Translations under genes and position numbers: made by a program
Part shown: in pieces, positions 15,200 to 46,524 of the stretch
How the letters are laid out: each line of letters opens with the position of its first letter
How positions within the stretch are numbered: position 1 is the first letter of the stretch
Notes under the pieces: generated by a model
Told to the model about the DNA's origin: nothing
The model's input: the letters and a program-made list of their open reading frames with translations, nothing else
Database searches by the model: none
IMG/VR virus record: IMGVR_UViG_3300005253_002057
Coordinates: 1-64,000 of that record
Strand: one strand, 5' to 3'
Length of the DNA stretch: 64,000 nt
From: a virus

Positions 15200-15811
15200 T
15201 TACTGTAGGGAGCTAAAAGGTACCATTAGGTACTGGTTTGTTATGCTACAATCGGTACAGAGTATACCTCCTGAATCCATTTCTTCCTGGTAATATACTT
15301 CTGTTAGCTCAATGTTTCTTCTAGCATTGCAGTTAAGACATACCATGTCGTAGGACTTTAGTACATCTATTGTTTCAAGGAGTAACTTGACTGTGCTGGC
15401 AAAGATTCCAGGGTTACGACTTTCTCTGTTACCAGCTACATTAAGTATGTGTACAGCGTTTATTCTAAGCCAGGCCCTTAGGTTCTCTGGTGTGGGATTC
15501 TCTGTCCAAGGCTTTCCTTCTTGTATGCAATAGCGTCGTGTTAGTCTAGAGCCAGGGCTGGAAGAATTGCCTGTTAGTAATGTACCATCACTATCTTGTA
15601 CATTAAGTTTAGTTCTAATTGGATAGGTTCTGGGGTCGTAAGGTCCTGCTACTAGTCCATAGGAAACTAATAGAGGTTTCTTGTAGCCATCTTCGGTCAT
15701 CCAGTTATAGGGTGCTGTTCCTCCTGTTTCTAATTCCAGTGCTGCTGCAGCTTCTAGACCAGCCATGTCAGCCCCTGTTTGACCCCCAGATATTATCTTA
15801 CTTGGATACAT
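15200..15811 (-). CDS. YpsA/MoCo-carrier-like SLOG-fold protein with zinc ribbon
   Basis: 203 residues. IISGGQTGADMAGLEAA at about 6-22 is the nucleotide-binding signature of the circularly permuted YpsA/MoCo carrier branch of the SLOG superfamily, which binds nucleotide-like ligands. The body keeps the expected length of about 150. The C-terminus adds CLNC...CTDC, a zinc ribbon not usual for the family. Its role here is unknown; SLOG proteins in mobile elements can be nucleotide-signal sensors. Confidence 0.8.
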   Translation of the reverse strand: MYPSKIISGGQTGADMAGLEAAAALELETGGTAPYNWMTEDGYKKPLLVSYGLVAGPYDPRTYPIRTKLNVQDSDGTLLTGNSSSPGSRLTRRYCIQEGKPWTENPTPENLRAWLRINAVHILNVAGNRESRNPGIFASTVKLLLETIDVLKSYDMVCLNCNARRNIELTEVYYQEEMDSGGILCTDCSITNQYLMVPFSSLQ

Positions 15812-21168: not shown

Positions 21169-21630
21169 CTACTCGTCGTCTTCGTCTGTCTTGCGGTCCT
21201 TACCCCTGAGCTCGACGACTCCCTGCTCGACCAAGATCCGCGTGTTCGCTACAGCGTTCTCGCCTTCCTCTGCGAACTCGACTACCAGCAATTCTATGGC
21301 TGCTGACAACCTTGCTCTCAAGCCGGTGTACTGCTCGGTCTTGCGGACCTGATTCCAGGTGGTGACCCTCAGCCTACGCTCGTGGTCTCCCCCTGCTTTT
21401 GCGGCTGGTGCTATCAGCACGCGACGCATGGCGCTCTGCTTCTGGATTTGAGCTATGCGTTTCTCATCGGCCTCTTTCGTGCTGATGCTGTACTGGGCCA
21501 TAGCTACAAGCGCGTCTGGCGTCATGTGGATTGCTTCCGCTGCGGCTTGTAAAGCCTCTGGGTCGCTCTCCTGCGCTGCTAGCACTTTTTCCGCCATGTC
21601 TGCCATGTCTTGTGTCTGTACGTCTGCCAT
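21169..21630 (-). CDS. Hypothetical origin-proximal protein
   Basis: 153 residues, Ala-rich and helical in the first half (EKVLAAQESDPEALQAAAEA), with a central basic WNQVRKTEQYTGLRARL and an acidic C-terminus. It is the first gene left of the AT-rich origin candidate and visibly more GC-rich than its neighbours. A replication or segregation role is possible by position only. Ribosome site AAGGAGTTTCACA. Confidence 0.7.
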   Translation of the reverse strand: MADVQTQDMADMAEKVLAAQESDPEALQAAAEAIHMTPDALVAMAQYSISTKEADEKRIAQIQKQSAMRRVLIAPAAKAGGDHERRLRVTTWNQVRKTEQYTGLRARLSAAIELLVVEFAEEGENAVANTRILVEQGVVELRGKDRKTDEDDE

Positions 21631-22090
21631 TGTGAAACTCCTTCAAGCACAGCAGGAGCATGAGCAAGCAAGCAACATATTCAATTGTTAATGTGCGATG
21701 CACATATATGCGTTTCGCATTGTTGTGCGTTTGCGGATTTGCGTTTTCCGCATTTCCATATTATTTCATTCCGAAAAATTATGCAAATTCTTGTTTTCCC
21801 ACACTTTTTTGAGAGAAATGTTATTTTTTCTACAAAAAACACACAAAAAGTTACGAAAATCGTAACAATAAATGGATTTGGTGTGTTTTTTCCACAAAAA
21901 AAATTGCTAGACGATTCTTGTTTATGTTATTTTATGTTGTTATATAACTGCTTTATGTTAAACTAGCATTGTTTGTTTTAATTTCCATATAAATTCCTCA
22001 ACTTGTATTATTTAGTATTGTTTATTATTCTTTAGCATTATTTATGTTACTTTATTTTAATTTATCCTAATTTATCCTTGCCCCTTTTAA

Positions 22091-22309
22091 TTCATGAATT
22101 TCTTTTCATGAAATACTTTTATGTAATCTGCTTTCATGAAAAGTAAAACATGAAATTTAATTCATGAATCATTTACAAATGAATTTTATTTCATGAATTT
22201 TGTTTCATGATTTTTATTTCAATGTTTTTTATTTCATGAAATAAGATACATGAATTTCTTTTCATGAATAAATTTTCAATAAAAGATTTTCATATTTTTA
22301 ATTTCATGA
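22091..22309. repeat. Cluster of TTCATGAA palindromes
   Basis: Perfect TTCATGAA copies begin at 22091, 22105, 22133, 22161, 22190, 22233, 22261 and 22302, with truncated copies at 22204 (TTCATGA) and near 22148 and 22249 (CATGAA). Each is a palindrome, mostly flanked by A/T. Spacing is irregular (14-41 nt), unlike a CRISPR. Probably binding sites for an initiator or partition protein. Confidence 0.85.
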
Positions 22310-22359
22310 AAATATGAATCCTATTATAATACTATATAGTCTATAATAGCTTTGAACCT

Positions 22360-22462
22360 GTTAATAGGGTCTGTTAATAGCCCTGTTAATAGGGGTGTTA
22401 ATAGCAAAATAAAAGACTGTAAATAGCTCTATGAATAGAACTATCAACAGTCTTATAAATAG
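22360..22462. repeat. GTTAATAG iteron ladder
   Basis: Four perfect GTTAATAG copies at 22360, 22373, 22385 and 22397 (12-13 nt apart, about one helical turn), then degenerate copies GTAAATAG (22419), TGAATAG (22432) and ATAAATAG (22455). Same-face spacing suggests cooperative binding of one protein, as in iteron origins. Confidence 0.8.
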
Positions 22463-22479
22463 CCTTACTAATTATTTTC

Positions 22480-22525
22480 TATTAAAAGAGAAAGGGTGCA
22501 AGCTGCCCTAATTGCTCGCACCCTT
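22480..22525 (-). terminator. Rho-independent terminator
   Basis: Read on the minus strand: AAGGGTGCGAGC, 10-nt loop, GCTTGCACCCTT, then TCTCTTTT. The stem is 12 bp counting one G-U pair and is followed by a U-rich tract. It ends the transcript of the gene at 22591-22977 and insulates the origin from it. Confidence 0.8.
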
Positions 22526-22590
22526 CTCTATCACGGCTCCTGCAATCTCCCGCTAAAAGATATGCAGGTCTACTTGGAGGAGGTCTGTAT

Positions 22591-22977
22591 TTAGGCTGCT
22601 ACTGCTGCCTCAGCCTTGTCTGCAGCTGCCTTCCTGGCAACTTTTCTGGCCTCGGACTTCACTTTCCTGGCTGCGGTCTTGACATCCTTGAGGTCGTCTC
22701 CGGCTGCCATTCTAGCCTTGCCTGCCTCGATTGCGTCCTTCCAAGGCTGTGAGAACTTGGAGTCGTTCTGGATGAGGTAAATTCCCCAGCGCTCTGCGTC
22801 TCTGTTCTCTCTGACTGCCTTCTTCTTTGCGAAGTACTTGCCGAAGTCTTCCAGCATGCTTTCGCCGCCGAGCTCTTCCGCTATCTTGGCCCTAAGCTCT
22901 GGGGACATTGAGTCCATTATTGAGGCTCCTGTGCTTGCCTGGTTTTCGTCTGCTACTTTTTCTGCCTTGCTAGTCAT
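22591..22977 (-). CDS. Lys/Ala-rich protein next to the origin
   Basis: 128 residues; helical middle and a C-terminus of repeated Ala/Lys (KVKSEARKVARKAAADKA) like the tails of histone H1-type or nucleoid proteins. It has its own sigma-70 promoter and terminator, so it is a single-gene transcript beside the origin. A DNA-binding role in replication or packaging is plausible, not shown. Confidence 0.75.
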   Translation of the reverse strand: MTSKAEKVADENQASTGASIMDSMSPELRAKIAEELGGESMLEDFGKYFAKKKAVRENRDAERWGIYLIQNDSKFSQPWKDAIEAGKARMAAGDDLKDVKTAARKVKSEARKVARKAAADKAEAAVAA

Positions 22978-23030: not shown

Positions 23031-23059
23031 ATTATACACCCTTTTTTGGATGTTGTCAA
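23031..23059 (-). promoter_or_regulatory. Sigma-70 promoter
   Basis: Minus strand TTGACA (23059-23054), 17-nt spacer, TATAAT (23036-23031); 53 nt to the ATG of the Lys/Ala-rich gene. Consensus in both boxes and spacing. Confidence 0.85.
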
Positions 23060-23358: not shown

Positions 23359-23417
23359 ACTTTCCCCCAGCCACTAGTTTGGAGTCCCCTCAGCGTGCCT
23401 CGTATGTGTATATGTGT

Positions 23418-23446
23418 ATTATAACGTATATATAAGGTAAGGTCAA
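23418..23446 (-). promoter_or_regulatory. Leftward sigma-70 promoter of divergent pair
   Basis: Minus strand TTGACC (23446-23441), 17-nt spacer, TATAAT (23423-23418), giving a leader of about 50 nt for the gene at 23113-23358. Confidence 0.8.
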
Positions 23447-23461
23447 GTTTTCAAACTTGAC
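23442..23461. promoter_or_regulatory. Palindromic operator shared by divergent -35 boxes
   Basis: GTCAAGTTT-TC-AAACTTGAC is a perfect 9-bp inverted repeat. The rightward -35 lies in one arm and the leftward -35 in the other. A dimeric regulator bound here would block both promoters at once. Confidence 0.65.
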
Positions 23462-23485
23462 AGTGGTGTGTTTCTGGTGTATAAT
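23457..23485 (+). promoter_or_regulatory. Rightward sigma-70 promoter of dut, leaderless
   Basis: TTGACA (23457-23462), 17-nt spacer, TATAAT (23480-23485), then 6 nt to the dut ATG. The expected transcription start coincides with the start codon. Confidence 0.88.
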
Positions 23486-26088: not shown

Positions 26089-26805
26089 GTGAAAAGTCTT
26101 GTAATGTTAAGTGGAGGACTAGATTCAAGTACTAGTCTTGCTCGAGCTATTAGTCTTGGAGATAAGTGTGAAGCACTTTTTATTGACTATGGACAGCGCT
26201 CCTTAGTTGAGTATGAGTCTGCTGAGCTTATAGCTGAATACTATAAAGTAAGACTTGTTCCTGTAGAGTGCAGAGGGATGCTGCTTAAGTCATCTCTTAT
26301 AAAGTCTGACAGTAATGAACTAAAGGAATTCTCAGTAGATGATGAGTTTACTGCTGAGGGTGATGCTTATGTACCAGGTAGAAACTTGATGCTAGTAGGT
26401 ATAGGCTTAGCCTATGCAGAGTCAAGAAAGATGGATAGATTACTACTAGGTATAATGGGTGTTGAAGAAGAAGATGAAGACGACCCTATCTTAAAAGATC
26501 AACACCCTAAGTTTCTAAAAGCAGTTGAACAAGCTGCACTCTTTGCTAAAGATCCAGTTAAAGTAGATAGTTTATTACTTGATCTTACTTGGAGAAGGCA
26601 AGTTATAACTTTAGCAGCTGAACTAAAAGTTCCTCTAGGTTATACTTATTCTTGTTACTGGGGAAAGCTAGCACACTGTGGTACTTGTGAGGCATGTGTA
26701 ATTAGAATTTTATCTTTTAAGAGGGCTGGATATAAAGATCCATCCAGATACTCAGAAGAACAGGAATGGGAAGGATGTAAAGAATGGCCAATAGAGCTAC
26801 AGTAA
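26089..26805 (+). CDS. queC: 7-cyano-7-deazaguanine (preQ0) synthase QueC
   Basis: 238 residues from GTG. Converts 7-carboxy-7-deazaguanine to preQ0 with ATP and ammonia. PP-loop SGGLDSS at 8-14, FIDYGQR, PGRN (in YVPGRNLML), and the zinc motif C-x7-C-x2-C-x2-C in YSCYWGKLAHCGTCEACV are complete. The length matches the family. Overlaps queD by 22 nt. Last step of preQ0 synthesis; queD, queE and folE lie within 4 kb. Confidence 0.95.
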   Translation: MKSLVMLSGGLDSSTSLARAISLGDKCEALFIDYGQRSLVEYESAELIAEYYKVRLVPVECRGMLLKSSLIKSDSNELKEFSVDDEFTAEGDAYVPGRNLMLVGIGLAYAESRKMDRLLLGIMGVEEEDEDDPILKDQHPKFLKAVEQAALFAKDPVKVDSLLLDLTWRRQVITLAAELKVPLGYTYSCYWGKLAHCGTCEACVIRILSFKRAGYKDPSRYSEEQEWEGCKEWPIELQ

Positions 26806-27224
26806 GTTATAGCTGGGAATTCTCAGCAGCTCATAGACTGATGAATCACCCTGGTAAGTGTAAGAGACTTCATGGTCATAACTATTATGTCACCATAGAA
26901 GTAGAAGGAGCTATGGATAGAGAAACTGGAATGGTGATTGACTTCTCTATACTTAAAGACGCATCCAGGCATGTAGACGAGATTATGGATCATATGACTC
27001 TTCTACAAAGTACAGATCCTGTAGCAGAAGCCCTTGCTACTATTCAGCTAGAGGGAGATATAGTCTTCTTTTCAGTTCCTCCTACAGTCGAGGCTATATG
27101 TGTACTAGTAGGAGAAGAGATTAAAATTGCCTTATCTAAGTACTCCCCTGCAACTACTTATCCTCGACTTACTAAGGTCATTATAAAGGAAACAGAGACT
27201 GGAGTAGCAAGCATAACATTATGA
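26784..27224 (+). CDS. queD: 6-carboxytetrahydropterin synthase QueD
   Basis: 146 residues. Converts dihydroneopterin triphosphate to 6-carboxytetrahydropterin. Zinc ligands His17 (FSAAHRL), His30 and His32 (LHGHNY), catalytic Cys26, the MDHMTLL motif at 69-75 (family LDHxxLN) and a C-terminal KETETGVASI with the catalytic Glu. Translationally linked to queC and, by overlap, to the lipoprotein gene downstream. Confidence 0.93.
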   Translation: MANRATVSYSWEFSAAHRLMNHPGKCKRLHGHNYYVTIEVEGAMDRETGMVIDFSILKDASRHVDEIMDHMTLLQSTDPVAEALATIQLEGDIVFFSVPPTVEAICVLVGEEIKIALSKYSPATTYPRLTKVIIKETETGVASITL

Positions 27225-28561
27225 GTTTAACAAGAACAAGATTAACATTTCTTATGGTTTTCGGTGTTCTCAGTCTAGTATTACTTACTGCATGTACTAC
27301 TGATGCTAGTAGAATTCGTGAGGCTAATAAAGCCTTTCGAGGGATAACAATTCCTGTTATTTCTACCCCTTCTATTCCTACCCCTTTTATTGTACCTTCT
27401 ACTGGATCCTCATATGTTGAAGCTTATCCTGTATTTGACAATCCTCAGTTTCCGACTATAGCTCCTTCAACCTCTATTCCTATTCCTACATCTTCCCCTA
27501 CTAGTATTCCTACATCTTCTCCTACCAGCATCCCTACACCTTTCCCTACTTCTACTAGTGTTCCTACTTTAACTCCGCCTACAGCTACTTCAGTTCCTTC
27601 TACACCTACACCTCCTCCTATAGAAGCGGATATATCTGCTACTAGTTTGGAGGATGGAGACTGTGCTCGTAGTAACTTTACTGATGATGAAATACTTAGT
27701 GGTAATACTGTTAAGTTTTATGACTTCGTGCTTCTACCGTGTGACGGTCCTTGGCAATTTCGAGTAGTTTCGTCGTTTCTAGTAGAATTAGATGCTGGTT
27801 ATATTGGTTATCCGAGCGACGAGAAGTTTATGAGTCTAGCCCAGGATAACTGCAAGCGTACGTATACGCTTCCCTTTTTCCCATTGTTTGAGAGCTGGAG
27901 GCTTGGTGATAGAACAGTTCATTGTATACAGATGGATATGGGTATAGCTCATTCTGACTTTGCTAGACTAGATAATATTATTGACCCCTACTTAGTTAAA
28001 GTAGAAGAATGCTTTAATGAGCTAGATGAGGGACTGGCTTATGAAATTCTATCGTGTGCTGGAGAATGGCAGTATCGTATAGTAGAAATTATAAGTCTAG
28101 CCTTGCTAGAAGAATTTCCAGGTGATGAGTATATTTGGACCAGAACACTTCAAGACTGTGATCGAAGAAGTTCTATGTATTTTCTTCCTACCCACGAGAC
28201 TTGGATAGATGAGGGTGCTCGTCTTATCTATTGTGCTCAGGGAGGGCAAGGTCTAAGTGGCTATAGCCTGGAGCGAATAGATCGTATTGTTGGCGAGTAT
28301 AAGCTTAATGCTGGAGAGTGCTATAATGAGGATACCAGCTATGCTTCTCCCTTAGTTGAAATAGTAGCGTGTGATGGCCCTTGGGAATATAAAATTCTAG
28401 ATAGGCTTATACTAGATAGAGATGGACTGTATCCGGAAGATTTATACTTTGATACTGAAGTATTTAATCGTTGTAACCGTTTCTATGACTACTCTTTGTC
28501 CCCTACTCAAGAACGCTGGGAAGCAGGAATTAAGTATATTCTATGTATTCAAGAAAGATAA
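27221..28561 (+). CDS. Lipoprotein with three septum-formation-like repeats
   Basis: 446 residues. Signal peptide with lipobox LTAC (Cys25), then a Ser/Thr/Pro-rich linker (about 45-145) of IPTSSPTSIPT type, then three related domains (about 160-250, 255-345, 350-446). Each has a Cys in LPCDGPWQFR, LSCAGEWQYR or VACDGPWEYK, then P-x(n)-C, then W-x-x-G-x(n)-CIQ. The arrangement resembles the actinobacterial 'septum formation' domain. Surface-anchored; a host-envelope role during infection is inferred. It splits queD from queE. Confidence 0.7.
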   Translation: MSLTRTRLTFLMVFGVLSLVLLTACTTDASRIREANKAFRGITIPVISTPSIPTPFIVPSTGSSYVEAYPVFDNPQFPTIAPSTSIPIPTSSPTSIPTSSPTSIPTPFPTSTSVPTLTPPTATSVPSTPTPPPIEADISATSLEDGDCARSNFTDDEILSGNTVKFYDFVLLPCDGPWQFRVVSSFLVELDAGYIGYPSDEKFMSLAQDNCKRTYTLPFFPLFESWRLGDRTVHCIQMDMGIAHSDFARLDNIIDPYLVKVEECFNELDEGLAYEILSCAGEWQYRIVEIISLALLEEFPGDEYIWTRTLQDCDRRSSMYFLPTHETWIDEGARLIYCAQGGQGLSGYSLERIDRIVGEYKLNAGECYNEDTSYASPLVEIVACDGPWEYKILDRLILDRDGLYPEDLYFDTEVFNRCNRFYDYSLSPTQERWEAGIKYILCIQER

Positions 28562-28565
28562 CGCT

Positions 28566-29243
28566 ATGACTCTTATAGACACTGAGATTAAGGTAAGCGA
28601 GTTATTTACTTCTATACAAGGGGAAGGTAACTATGCTGGCTTTCCTACAACTTTTATTCGATTATTTGGGTGTCCTCTTCGCTGTTCTTGGTGTGATAGC
28701 AAATATACTTGGGATAATAAAAGTAGATGGGAGCTATATTCTTTACAGGATATACTAAGGTATACACTCAGACAAAAGTCTAAATATGTATGCTTAACTG
28801 GTGGTGAGCCACTAGCAGACTATAATCTAGAACCTAGTAGATTAATTTGTGAAAGAATTAGTCCGCACCGCAGTATTTCTGTAGAAACTTCTGGCTGCTT
28901 CATGTTACCTGGGTGGAGAAACTTGGTAGAGAGCTGGGTCTGGGATGTTAAACTTCCTGGGTCTGGTATGTTTGAAGAGAATGAATTAGATGAATTATCT
29001 AAGCTAGGTTTTAAGGATCAAGTTAAATTTATAGTAAAGGATTCCACTGACTTTGAGCAGGCTCTAGCTATATACAAAGAGTATAAGCTATCTTCAGTTA
29101 GTGGCTTGACAATACTATGGGCTCCGGTATATAATGAGTTAGATTTAAAGTGGTTTGCAGCTAAAGTGATTGCCCTGGGAGAAAATAATAGATTAAGCAT
29201 ACAAGTTCACAAATTAATTTGGAGAGAGAAAAGGGGAAAGTAA
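28566..29243 (+). CDS. queE: 7-carboxy-7-deazaguanine synthase QueE (radical SAM)
   Basis: 225 residues. Rearranges 6-carboxytetrahydropterin to 7-carboxy-7-deazaguanine. QGEG at 18-21, C36-x3-C40-x2-C43 in GCPLRCSWCD with a following TWD, and TGGEPL at 78-83. The ATG at 28566 gives a start at the family's usual position; an upstream in-frame ATG falls inside the lipoprotein gene and is rejected. Ends with TAATG coupling to a membrane protein. Confidence 0.94.
   Translation: MTLIDTEIKVSELFTSIQGEGNYAGFPTTFIRLFGCPLRCSWCDSKYTWDNKSRWELYSLQDILRYTLRQKSKYVCLTGGEPLADYNLEPSRLICERISPHRSISVETSGCFMLPGWRNLVESWVWDVKLPGSGMFEENELDELSKLGFKDQVKFIVKDSTDFEQALAIYKEYKLSSVSGLTILWAPVYNELDLKWFAAKVIALGENNRLSIQVHKLIWREKRGK
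29106..29135 (+). promoter_or_regulatory. Possible internal promoter inside queE
   Basis: TTGACA, 18-nt spacer, TATAAT within the queE coding sequence, about 110 nt before the next gene. Could boost folE, nuclease, dpdA and polymerase expression; may also be chance in AT-rich coding DNA. Confidence 0.35.
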
Positions 29244-29470
29244 TGTTAAGTTTGCTTCCAGTAGTAAGTTTTATAGGCTGGACAGTTATAGCCATAGCTG
29301 CAGTCTATACCTGGGGGAGAATGGTATCCAGACGTAGAAGGAATCCAGACTACGTAGAGTCTCTTAAAGCAGCTGGACAGTACCAGAGATATAAGCTAGG
29401 TCTATTCTTCGCCTTTATGCTGATGATGGTTGCGCTTGTATTTGCTGCAATCTCTTTATCGTTCGTCTAG
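29243..29470 (+). CDS. Two-helix membrane protein
   Basis: 75 residues: helices at about 5-24 and 53-74 with a basic loop (RRRRNPDYVESLKAAGQYQR) between. ATG overlaps the queE stop (TAATG). No family recognised. Confidence 0.65.
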   Translation: MLSLLPVVSFIGWTVIAIAAVYTWGRMVSRRRRNPDYVESLKAAGQYQRYKLGLFFAFMLMMVALVFAAISLSFV

Positions 29471-29473
29471 CCC

Positions 29474-29710
29474 TTGAGGGAGAAGTTAACTAGTTGGACC
29501 TGGTGGCGTGCATGGCTTAAACGCCAGCTTTCTTTCAAGGCTGGCGTTGAGGCCTTTTTAGCCTCCTTTGTCAAGGTTAGAACTAGACAAGAAAGAGGAA
29601 TGAATAAAATAACCAAGGCATCTAAGATGTACTTAGGGATAGGACGTAGGGCTGAAAGGAGAAGGCTTGCTAGAAGAGGGCAAAGTAATAGAGGCACAGA
29701 TAAAAAATGA
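29474..29710 (+). CDS. Basic hypothetical protein, uncertain start
   Basis: Up to 78 residues from TTG, Trp/Arg-rich (WTWWRAWLKRQ) then very basic at the C-terminus (RRAERRRLARRGQSNRG). A strong stem-loop lies inside the 5' half, so translation may start at the ATG at 29600 instead (36 residues). Overlaps folE by 44 nt. Confidence 0.45.
   Translation: MREKLTSWTWWRAWLKRQLSFKAGVEAFLASFVKVRTRQERGMNKITKASKMYLGIGRRAERRRLARRGQSNRGTDKK
29520..29565 (+). other. Two adjacent hairpins, possible terminator or attenuator
   Basis: AACGCCAGC and GCTGGCGTT form a perfect 9-bp stem with an 11-nt loop (29520-29548); immediately after, GAGGC-CTTTTTA-GCCTC forms a second hairpin (29549-29565). Looks like a terminator or attenuator between queE and folE, although an ORF runs through it. 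Confidence 0.5.
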
Positions 29711-30290
29711 GCAATTTGCTGATAGCTATGAGAAAATAAAAAGCTCTGTTCAAGGACAATTAACTATAATGGGCTATGACTTAGCTAGTGATGGTCTAGT
29801 TGATACTCCTGATAGAGTTGCTAGAATGTTCTTTAGTGAGCTTTTTGTCACCGATATAGATCTGAAAGACGTGTTATCTGTTACCTTTGACGAAGGTGAT
29901 AGAGAAGGGACAGATGACTTAGTTGCTATGTCTAACATAAAGTTTAGTTCCTGGTGTGAACATCATATGCTACCTTTCTGGGGCGAAGCCTTTATAGCTT
30001 ATGTTCCTAGGGAAAGGGTAGTAGGAATATCTAAGTTAGTTAGACTGGTAAGAGCTGCAGCTAGAGGGCTTAATATACAAGAGAGGATAACTCATAACGT
30101 AGCTGACTGCCTGGATGAGTACTTATCGGCTAAAGGAGTCTTGGTGGTTACAAGAGCAGTCCACTCCTGTATGATAGTTAGAGGAGTCAAGGGCTTTTCT
30201 GAGCAGCTTACTGTTTCTGCAGTTAAAGGACTTATGAAAGATTCTGGCACATTAAGAAGTGAGGCCCTTAGTTTATTAGGCTTGGCTTAA
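29667..30290 (+). CDS. folE: GTP cyclohydrolase I FolE
   Basis: 207 residues from TTG, with AAAGGAGAAGGC just upstream. Makes dihydroneopterin triphosphate from GTP, the entry step to preQ0. Zinc ligands Cys97 and His100 (WCEHHMLPF) and Cys168 (HSCMIVRG); VGISKLVRLV and the QERIT segment are conserved family stretches. Completes the folE-queD-queE-queC route in one operon. Confidence 0.95.
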   Translation: MLEEGKVIEAQIKNEQFADSYEKIKSSVQGQLTIMGYDLASDGLVDTPDRVARMFFSELFVTDIDLKDVLSVTFDEGDREGTDDLVAMSNIKFSSWCEHHMLPFWGEAFIAYVPRERVVGISKLVRLVRAAARGLNIQERITHNVADCLDEYLSAKGVLVVTRAVHSCMIVRGVKGFSEQLTVSAVKGLMKDSGTLRSEALSLLGLA

Positions 30291-32139: not shown

Positions 32140-34869
32140 ATGGCAAAAGCACAATGGGCTAGGCTAGATAAATCTTGGGCTTCTAGACTTGAGTTTTATG
32201 ATCTTGATAAGCGAGATCAGAAAAAGCTTGCTGGAAAGCGTAAGCATCCTTTAGCTAAGTGTGAAGAATGTCCTCTTGAAAGAAAGGTATGTGTTCCTGG
32301 CTTTGGCACAAGAAAAGCACAGATAGTTTGGTGTGGTGAGTCTCCAGGGGCGCAAGAGTTATGGGCTAGGGAGCCTTATATAGGGCCTGCTGGAAAGCTA
32401 CTAAAAGAAATACTCAAAGAGGAATCAATACCTATAGAGGACTGCTGGTTTACTAACTCCACTCTTTGCTTAATGAGCGAAGATGAAGAATGGGCTGAGA
32501 AAGAAATACAAGCATGCTCAGATAGATTATTTGATGAGATAGCAGAAGTCAATCCTAAGTTGGTAGTTGCTTTAGGAGCAGATGCTTTCTACTCCCTTAC
32601 TGGATTTGATGAAAAGATAACTTTAGTATCAGGTACTATGTTCAAAACAAAGGATGGAAAGTACGATGTACTACCTATAATCCATCCTGCTTATGTTCTT
32701 CATAATGAGGGAGAAGTGTCTAATTTTAGGCACTATGTACGTCAGGTATTTAGATTAGTTTATGCTCCCAGTCTTACCTCTAGACTTAAAGATCCAAATA
32801 CTACATTAGTATTAGATGAAGATTGGGAAGATGCTTGTAACTTAGTTCATAAGAAGGCTAGTAAGACTGGGAAATTACTTATAGATATAGAGTCCACTGC
32901 CTATGATCCTTTAAGAGAGAATTTACTTATTGTAGGTGTTTCTCCTGATGGAATTAACTCCTATCTTTTTCCTACTGCAGAATTTGATGAAGACGGAGAA
33001 TGGTTAAGACCTATAGAGGAAAATGTTCCTGAAGAAAGTATTAAATTTAAGCAACTTAATAAGTTAATTTCTGAAAGAGAAGCCTTTGAGAGAGAAGGGC
33101 ATAATGTAGACTTTGACCAGAAATGGTTGAAGAGTAGAGGCTTTGATGTATACTTTACTAGAGATACTTTTCTTGCTGACTATACAATGCATGAACAAGC
33201 TGGAGGTCATGGACTTAAGTCATTAATAAATTATCACTTTGGAAATGATGACTGGGAGAAAACTCTAAAGAAGGGACTAGGAAAGATAAAGAACTACGCT
33301 GATATTCCAGTTATTTCAATGAACGAGTATGCTGGTAAAGATGTTGCTTGGAACTGGTCTCTAGGCGAGAGTCAGCGTAATGAGTTAATGACTGATGATG
33401 ATAAGTTTGTACACGATGAGATACTCATAAAGTGTATGCACACATTCTCAGCTACTACTTTAAGAGGCTATAAAGTAGATCTAAAGAAGTCTCTTGAGTT
33501 AGTAGAAGAGCTTACTGATAAACTGGATTATCATGCCTCCACTCTTAGGGATCTAGTTGAGGATACTAGCTTTAATCCCGGCTCCAGTATTAAGGTTTCT
33601 GCCTATCTATATGATGAGCTAGGGCTACCTACTATCCTTGGAAGAAACTCTCAGGCAAAAACTCTTAGGGCTGTACAATCTTATTGTATTGATAGAGTTA
33701 CTAATGGGAATGATACAGACGGAACTCTTGCTCACGCTTTAGAGTTTATAGATTCTAAGTTGGAGTATGCTTCCCTTGCGAAAGAAGTAGGAACTTATGT
33801 AGTAGGAATAGTTAGAAAGCTAGGACCAGACTTAAGACTACATCCTAGAGTACGTTTAAGTGGGGCTGTTACTGGCCGTATTGCTATGGATGAGCCCTCT
33901 TTACTTAACTTCTTAAAGGGCTCAAGAGTTAGAGAGCAAATAGTTCCAGATAATGATGAGTGGCTAATAGCTGAGGCTGATGCTAAACAGTTTGAGCTCC
34001 GCTACTATGCCGATTACATAAAAGATGAAACCTTAACTAAAGGATTGGCCAATCCAGACTATGATCCTCATGATGAAGCTACTACTTTAATATTCAAGCA
34101 AGTAATAGAATTATGCAGAATTATAGCACGGGCTGAAGTTAAGGAGGTAGCTGAGAGAGCGTACGAGGACCTTAAGTTATTAGGTACTAAAACTGGTAGT
34201 TATCTTACTGAAGAAGCCAGAAGAGCAGTATTTTATTCAAAGCTCCCAGATAATATATCAGCAATTCCTTTTGAACAAATAACGAAAGCCTTTTCTGACT
34301 GCTGTGATATATACAGAAGAATTGCAAAGACAGTAGTATTTGGACTTCTTTATAATAGAGGGGCTCAAGCTATAGCCAGGGCATTTAGAATTACATATGC
34401 TGATGCTTTATTATGGATAGAAGCTATAAAAGGTCCTTGGGAGGGAGTTCCTAGATATGAGGACTATGTAAGAAAGTGTCTGGATGAAGATGGAAGAATA
34501 ACTTCTCAGTTTAGACGTTGGCGTAGAGCCCCTTCAGTTAATGATACTAACTGGCATGAATGGTTTAATGCTTTCATTAACTTTCCAATACAGTCTGCTT
34601 GCAATGATATAAATATGTTGAATATGAACTTGCTGTATAATAGGGAAGAGGAACTGGGAATCAAGGTAATGTGGCCTATTCATGACTCACAGATATTTCA
34701 AGTTAGAAAAGATGGATATAAAGAAAGATTAGCCTTTATTCAGACTTTACTAGAGGAAAATATACAAAAACTGGTAGGGGCAAAAGAAGTTAAGTTTGCA
34801 GTAGAGACAAAAGTGGGCCCTGACTGGTACAATGTTAAAGACGTATCAAAGTTTGAGCTGGTAGCCTAA
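32140..34869 (+). CDS. Family-A DNA polymerase with N-terminal uracil-DNA glycosylase domain
   Basis: 909 residues, three modules. (1) Family-4 UDG, about 30-205: Fe-S Cys41, Cys44, Cys110, Cys126; GESPGAQE at 66-73; HPA at 182-184. (2) 3'-5' exonuclease, about 240-410: DIE at 249-251, HNVDFD at 321-326, NEYAGKD at 395-401. (3) Polymerase, about 430-909: TGR at 578-580, motif A EADAKQFELR with Asp614, O-helix R726-x3-K730-x3-F734-G, and motif C HDS at 848-850 where most family members have HDE. About 60 extra residues lie between motifs A and B. UDG-PolA fusions are known in some phages. Replicative polymerase of the element. Confidence 0.93.
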   Translation: MAKAQWARLDKSWASRLEFYDLDKRDQKKLAGKRKHPLAKCEECPLERKVCVPGFGTRKAQIVWCGESPGAQELWAREPYIGPAGKLLKEILKEESIPIEDCWFTNSTLCLMSEDEEWAEKEIQACSDRLFDEIAEVNPKLVVALGADAFYSLTGFDEKITLVSGTMFKTKDGKYDVLPIIHPAYVLHNEGEVSNFRHYVRQVFRLVYAPSLTSRLKDPNTTLVLDEDWEDACNLVHKKASKTGKLLIDIESTAYDPLRENLLIVGVSPDGINSYLFPTAEFDEDGEWLRPIEENVPEESIKFKQLNKLISEREAFEREGHNVDFDQKWLKSRGFDVYFTRDTFLADYTMHEQAGGHGLKSLINYHFGNDDWEKTLKKGLGKIKNYADIPVISMNEYAGKDVAWNWSLGESQRNELMTDDDKFVHDEILIKCMHTFSATTLRGYKVDLKKSLELVEELTDKLDYHASTLRDLVEDTSFNPGSSIKVSAYLYDELGLPTILGRNSQAKTLRAVQSYCIDRVTNGNDTDGTLAHALEFIDSKLEYASLAKEVGTYVVGIVRKLGPDLRLHPRVRLSGAVTGRIAMDEPSLLNFLKGSRVREQIVPDNDEWLIAEADAKQFELRYYADYIKDETLTKGLANPDYDPHDEATTLIFKQVIELCRIIARAEVKEVAERAYEDLKLLGTKTGSYLTEEARRAVFYSKLPDNISAIPFEQITKAFSDCCDIYRRIAKTVVFGLLYNRGAQAIARAFRITYADALLWIEAIKGPWEGVPRYEDYVRKCLDEDGRITSQFRRWRRAPSVNDTNWHEWFNAFINFPIQSACNDINMLNMNLLYNREEELGIKVMWPIHDSQIFQVRKDGYKERLAFIQTLLEENIQKLVGAKEVKFAVETKVGPDWYNVKDVSKFELVA

Positions 34870-45987: not shown

Positions 45988-46524
45988 GTGGCTATAACAG
46001 TGATAACTGGCCCTATGGGAAGTGGAAAGACTACTCTTATGACTGCAGTAGGAGTACTGGCCCATGAACTAGATGGAGTTAGGATATTCTGTAACTATCG
46101 CTTGACTGGTATAGAACATACCTTTTTTAGACCTACTGAGTTTGCCGACTTGATGGAGGCTGAGGAATTAAATAATTGCATAGTTCTATTAGACGAGGCA
46201 TATCTTCTTATGGATTCCCGTACTTCTGGTGCTAGGATAAATAGATTATTTTCCGCTTTTACTTACCAAGCAAGAAAAAGAGGAGTAGACTTACTAGTAG
46301 TTACTCATCATACAGATCATATAGATAAGCGAATAAGAAGAGCCATGTCTTATAGATGGAGGCCTAGATTTAATCCAACTACTCATGTAATAACTGTATA
46401 CTCAAAGGCTGAAGAAGTAGGGCATAGGTCTAGATTCAAGATACAAGCAGATAAGTTCTGGCCTTACTTTGACACTAATGAGATTCCTATTATAAGCAAG
46501 CAGTTAAAGAGGGTAGTATTTTAA
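45988..46524 (+). CDS. Zot/pI-like P-loop ATPase (virion assembly or packaging)
   Basis: 178 residues from GTG. Walker A GPMGSGKTT at 8-16, Walker B IVLLDEAYLLMD at 65-76, then ARKRGVDLLVVTHH at 95-108 and DKRIRRAM at 113-120. The order of a DEA box, an R-x-RG-x-D strand ending in T-H/Q, and D-x-x-IR matches the Zot/pI group that extrudes filamentous phages. Unlike Zot there is no C-terminal membrane helix. An A32-like packaging ATPase is the main alternative. Confidence 0.7.
   Translation: MAITVITGPMGSGKTTLMTAVGVLAHELDGVRIFCNYRLTGIEHTFFRPTEFADLMEAEELNNCIVLLDEAYLLMDSRTSGARINRLFSAFTYQARKRGVDLLVVTHHTDHIDKRIRRAMSYRWRPRFNPTTHVITVYSKAEEVGHRSRFKIQADKFWPYFDTNEIPIISKQLKRVVF

Follow-up and report, generated by a model that had tools for sequence, protein, structure and literature searches.

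The window analysed here comprises bases 1-64000 of an 88,157-base IMG/VR virus record, the remainder of which was read as two further pieces, L005 and L006. At 21631-22590 the window has a gene-free gap, with an AT-rich core of about 800 bp, that is flanked by two leftward genes (Table 1). Of all ORF-free stretches in the 88 kb it ranks among the two longest, and it contains the GC minimum of the record (18.3% at 22007-22306, in 300-bp stretches; the runner-up has 29%). An earlier note on this DNA had described an AT-rich, gene-free segment, and in this it was right. It had also put the segment at a switch of coding direction, but both neighbouring genes run leftward and the gap is therefore not the switch, which is found at 23359-23467, between divergent sigma-70 promoters and about 0.9 kb to the right. 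Single-sequence AlphaFold2 models of the two flanking orphan proteins were of low confidence and unreliable, and were set aside.

Table 1. Coordinates of genes, repeats, hairpins and promoters in and around the gap
Position	Strand	Feature	Basis or remark
21169-21630	-	Leftward ORF, 153 aa, left flank	No database relatives; AF2 pLDDT 48
21824-21901		25-nt inverted repeat (84%) around a second inverted repeat, GTTACGAAAATCGTAAC (21850-21866)	
21910-22085		AT-rich repeats of 10-nt period, TTTATGTTA / ATTTATCCTA type; candidate unwinding element	Autocorrelation, TRF
22091-22310		TTCATGAA palindromes, 8 exact plus degenerate copies, 14-nt lattice; candidate sites for a dimeric protein	
about 22321-22488		CTGTTAATAG array, 12-13-nt lattice	Minus strand reads CTATTAACA
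22413-22454	-	18-bp interrupted hairpin inside the 12-nt array, then TTTATTTT on the minus strand	Minus-strand folds, z about -7 for the stretch
22487-22529	-	Strong hairpin resembling an intrinsic terminator; interrupted 16-bp stem followed by TTTT	RNA fold and sequence
22591-22977	-	Leftward ORF, 128 aa, right flank, basic C-terminal helix	No database relatives; AF2 pLDDT 66, all helical
23031-23059	-	Perfect TTGACA-17-TATAAT promoter, driving the gene that starts at 22977	
23418-23485	both	Back-to-back sigma-70 promoters (minus 23446-23418, plus 23457-23485)	True coding-direction switch

A consensus scan found no sigma-70 promoter above chance in the gap. Perfect TTGACA-N16/18-TATAAT sites number six in the window vs 0.05 expected, which points to a bacterium as the most likely host. 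Alongside these bacterial promoters the record carries a gene for a Zot-like/AAA ATPase (45988-46524, plus strand). In a collection of 50,697 phage records this ATPase matches only one, that of the Lokiarchaeal spindle-shaped virus WyrdV1 (32% over 65%). The region of large proteins around it (35585-56305) gave no other Pfam or PHROG match where it was scanned, and recognisable tailed-phage structural genes are lacking in the virus. The record does encode PolA (32140-34869), a Cas4-like exonuclease, and SNF2 and RNase H-like proteins. Genes for QueC, QueD, a radical SAM protein (QueE-like) and GTP cyclohydrolase I stand in a row at 26089-30290 (plus strand); these are genes of the preQ0 pathway and possibly serve DNA base modification. 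A protein with a circularly permuted YpsA (SLOG) domain is encoded at 15200-15811 (minus strand). No Rfam family was matched and no tRNAs were found.

Outside the window, a second polymerase-like gene (L005:12784-14742, plus strand; about 75783-77741 of the record) matches phrog_11768 over part of its length and has no match to PF03175, the protein-primed PolB family, or to the PDB. Further on in L005 a weak macro-domain match (L005:14723-15166) is followed by an OmpR-type winged-helix protein (L005:15168-15707), a candidate for a protein that binds the arrays described below.

Repeat arrays and hairpins in the gap

Three abutting arrays occupy the gap, with periods of 10, 14 and 12 nt, and these periods are the strongest autocorrelation lags. 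The lag of each array exceeds 1000 of 1000 dinucleotide shuffles; for lag 10 in the leftmost array none of the 1000 reached the same height, and TRF reports period 10 at 22005-22044 and 22040-22075. In the middle array, exact copies of TTCATGAA start at 22091, 22105, 22133, 22161, 22190, 22233, 22261 and 22303. The start-to-start spacings (14, 28, 28, 29, 43, 28 and 42) are multiples of 14 to within one base, and several of the gaps in this lattice are filled by degenerate copies. Beyond the array there are just two more exact copies in 64 kb.

In the rightmost array CTGTTAATAG is exact at 22358, 22371 and 22383 and has one mismatch at 22395 (GTGTTAATAG) and at 22417, with degenerate or inverted copies at 22321, 22429, 22441, 22453 and 22479, mostly on a 12-nt lattice. 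The shorter GTTAATAG is exact four times (22360, 22373, 22385 and 22397). Over 400 bp the lattices offer about 16 palindrome and 10 12-mer positions. Dinucleotide shuffles of 21690-22480 yielded at most two copies of TTCATGAA and one of GTTAATAG, vs eight and four observed; the repeats are thus genuine and far above chance expectation, and an element of this sort is out of the ordinary within this genome. Nowhere else in the record is there a second copy of the TTCATGAA or the 12-mer array.

The two repeat families had been seen in the earlier note and hold up, the arrays being longer and more ordered than it described. Its statement that the 12-13-nt spacing is one helical turn is mistaken: 12-13 bp is about 1.2 turns, and only the 10-nt array comes near one turn. 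Nor does the near-consensus DnaA box that it listed have any weight. Matches to TTATNCACA with at most one mismatch occur 51 times in the window vs 59 expected, and the two in this region therefore carry no meaning; DnaA boxes were rejected as an origin mark, their occurrence being that of chance, with no enrichment in the window.

The right edge of the gap is marked by two hairpins. That at 22487-22529 sits where the leftward gene 22591-22977 ends and was missed by a consensus terminator scan because its loop exceeds 8 nt. The hairpin at 22413-22454 is built partly from inverted 12-mers and, as modelled, is a candidate for a second terminator-like element or a cruciform.

Likeness to phage initiator-gene origins

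Are comparable arrangements found elsewhere? Origins of the lambda type have inverted-repeat iterons to which O dimers are bound, with an AT-rich unwinding element adjoining, and in RK2 the unwinding element contains repeated 13-mers (PMC5043065). The origin of Vibrio cholerae chromosome II resembles the window element in having multiple short repeats of two kinds, both of which are used by one initiator (PMC3688505).

A pattern scan of IMG/VR for three copies of TTAATAG on a 12-nt lattice returned 18 contigs, and in three of them (L017, L038 and L045) the array lies within a phage initiator gene or next to one. In L038 it lies inside a gene with HTH_36 and DnaD_N, and in L045 inside an HTH_36 gene flanked by RecT and a DnaC-like ATPase (loader). 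Proteins related to those of L045 and L038 carry the annotations replication initiation O-like, DNA replication protein O, DUF4373 and replication initiation protein. In L017 (IMGVR_UViG_3300035506_000139) the array, at 761-843, consists, like that of the window, of the full CTGTTAATAG unit on a 12-nt lattice and is situated 8 bp downstream of a Lin1244_N gene, just outside the gene. L017 differs in that the TTCATGAA array is absent, the initiator is adjacent and the contig looks like a tailed phage (from a terminase-like ORF, read by eye).

An array-blind test set was assembled from 27 lambda-O/DnaD-type initiator loci fetched by protein similarity only. TRF found tandem arrays in 23 of the 27 initiator genes vs seven arrays in 61.9 kb of flanks, and 12-nt arrays in nine of the 27 vs one in the same flanks; these counts are to be read with the provisos that codon phase may favour a 12-nt period within genes (the window array is noncoding), that several of the loci are mutually related, and that for six unannotated fecal loci the limits of the gene were drawn by hand around the match. 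In L038, L045, L050, L061 and L063 palindromic or long iterons are followed immediately by 12-nt repeats. The same order is seen in L066 and L067, again inside phage initiator genes. The 12-mer cores of initiator genes (CCTATTAAAG, CTATTAAAC and CCTAACA) are similar to CCTATTAACAGG of the window minus strand, and the window core CTATTAACA resembles CCTATTAAAG and CCTAACA.

The window element thus shares with lambda-O/DnaD-type origins (HTH_36, Lin1244_N, which is DUF4373, and O-like) palindromic iterons that abut 12-nt direct repeats, a core of the form CTATTAA(A/C)A or CCTAACA, and an AT-rich side. The eight copies of TTCATGAA correspond to the palindromic or inverted-repeat iteron array of such origins, and the 12-nt CTGTTAATAG array and the 18% GC core correspond to the adjacent direct repeats and AT-rich unwinding region. 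There are differences, however. The phage origins lie inside initiator genes, whereas the window element is free-standing in a gap of a record without such a gene; their palindromes are mostly 10 or 21-24 nt, as against 14 nt in the window; and in L038, L045, L050 and L061 the 12-mers are mirrored relative to the palindromes when set against the window. A literature search on Lin1244 or replisome-organizer iterons turned up nothing specific.

The earlier note had seen no known Rep protein nearby, and profile searches extend this to the whole record: Lin1244_N (PF14297), HTH_36 (PF13730), Rep_3 and DnaB_C all gave no match at E<=1. As far as the HTH_36 and Lin1244_N profiles can tell, the arrays are not located at an initiator gene of the HTH_36, Lin1244_N or O type, and the flanking ORFs are orphans; the scan for a nearby helicase or loader, made with DnaB_C only, gave no match. 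Iteron (Rep_3) plasmid origins also have multiple short repeats, but here there is neither the Rep_3 initiator gene in the record nor enriched DnaA boxes beside the iterons. A search for the initiator gene that defines the lambda-O/DnaD class came up empty, and for this reason the element is not placed in that class. It is assigned to no known origin family, and may still work like a lambda-O/DnaD origin.

Lattice searches of IMG/VR found no relative of the whole cis element: exact 14-nt TTCATGAA lattices are absent there, and a CTRTTAATAG triple on a 12-nt lattice is absent from GTDB genomes. Of 15 contigs with two copies of TGTTAATAG 12 nt apart, most proved to be chance matches in coding sequence, and the sole BLASTN match of the array to phages was likewise a chance match, of 21 bases. 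When used as queries for related loci, the Sak4-like, PolA and Zot-like proteins returned nothing close, and the SNF2 protein merely helicases of 26-28%.

Strand composition and the possible role of the gap

The GC skew inflection proposed as a test at 22 kb does not materialize. The raw cumulative minimum is at 23401, exactly between the divergent promoters and about 1 kb from the gap, and raw skew was rejected as origin evidence because it follows coding direction. Skew was re-measured at fourfold-degenerate sites, which removes most of the coding effect. GC skew at these sites tracks the sense strand, and no change of sign occurs at 22-23 kb. AT skew at the same sites (plus strand) is -0.30 in each of the three left bins; immediately to the right of the switch it stands at -0.23, from where it rises to +0.35 at 80-88 kb, an end-to-end gradient that is independent of the 23.4-kb switch. 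A model of linear gradient plus sense has an SSE of 142 vs 343 for a 22-kb origin with antipodal terminus plus sense; the gradient fit is stable at three ORF-size cut-offs and is matched by 0 of 1000 permutations of rightward genes. The skew data argue against a bidirectional origin at 22 kb as the main start.

What, then, might the gap do? It has about an even chance of being a stand-alone, initiator-binding replication origin of the phage kind that combines palindromic iterons with 12-mer repeats. This reading is favoured by analogy, because the layout and the 12-mer core match phage initiator-gene origins, and it is supported by three ordered arrays, the lowest GC and a long ORF-free gap. 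It is weakened by the undetected initiator and DnaB, unenriched DnaA boxes, lack of a skew flip and mirrored 12-mers. Of the origin proposed in the earlier note, comparative anatomy thus upholds an origin-like cis element, and strand skew gives no sign of a start at 22 kb. The narrower proposal, that a stand-alone origin of 14-nt palindromes and 12-mers is served by an initiator of an undescribed family in a bacterial virus without recognisable tailed-phage structural genes, can be advanced only tentatively.

Other functions could account for parts of the evidence. A small viral DNA-binding protein might coat the repeats as many dimers, making them an operator or silencer, and control 21169-21630, and perhaps 22591-22977, which would make the gap a regulatory region. 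The array is directly upstream of the leftward gene 21169-21630 and downstream of the terminator-like hairpins; as the gap has no above-chance sigma-70 promoter, this gene may depend on a special promoter or an activated one, and the OmpR-type winged helix is encoded in the record. But some 16 palindrome positions and 10 12-mers exceed an ordinary operator, the layout fits origin anatomy, and a regulon predicts further copies of the array, which the record does not have; an operator is possible, though on the unlikely side. That replication starts elsewhere, most simply at both ends if the genome is linear or in a missing part if it is larger, and that the array is a late origin, recombination or packaging site, seems rather improbable too, even with an AT skew that is linear over the whole record and unbroken at 22 kb. 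The gradient could come from replication entering at the ends, or alternatively from codon bias of gene classes. Protein-primed viruses carry family-B polymerases, and the polymerase-like gene at about 76 kb has its partial match in a phage DNA-polymerase family, but it does not match PF03175 and a PolA gene is present too. The two ends of the record share no terminal inverted repeat, and the right end (L006, about 88128-88157) reads CTGTCTCTTATACACATCTCCGAGCCCACG, presumably an untrimmed Nextera adapter; the ends of the record are therefore not proven genome ends. Plasmid centromeres typically show dense short repeats in AT-rich gaps, as are seen here, and a centromere-like partition site bound by a ParB, ParR or omega-type protein would have this appearance. 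A search for the ParA-type ATPase (PF13614), with ParM and TubZ outside its scope, gave no match at E<=1 in the possibly incomplete record, but matched in all control genomes, and a partition site is very improbable.

If the gap is an initiator-binding origin, a virus-encoded protein of an unrecognised family would bind the 14-nt TTCATGAA array as dimers, which would build a nucleoprotein complex. Next to it the AT-rich repeats, the CTATTAACA 12-mers on one flank and the 10-nt TTTATGTTA repeats on the other, might then melt or stay single-stranded, and the viral polymerase and a helicase, from the host or the virus, would load there and start replication. The pair of hairpins on the right would halt leftward transcription before it reaches the element.

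As an origin, the element would imply that the virus encodes or recruits an initiator that is invisible to the profiles tried, and it would provide an exact DNA bait for that protein. The comparison also suggests that palindromic iterons beside 12-nt CTATTAAMA-like repeats are possibly a general layout across diverse phage initiators. Such a combination of iterons and 12-mers could help locate origins in orphan virus genomes.
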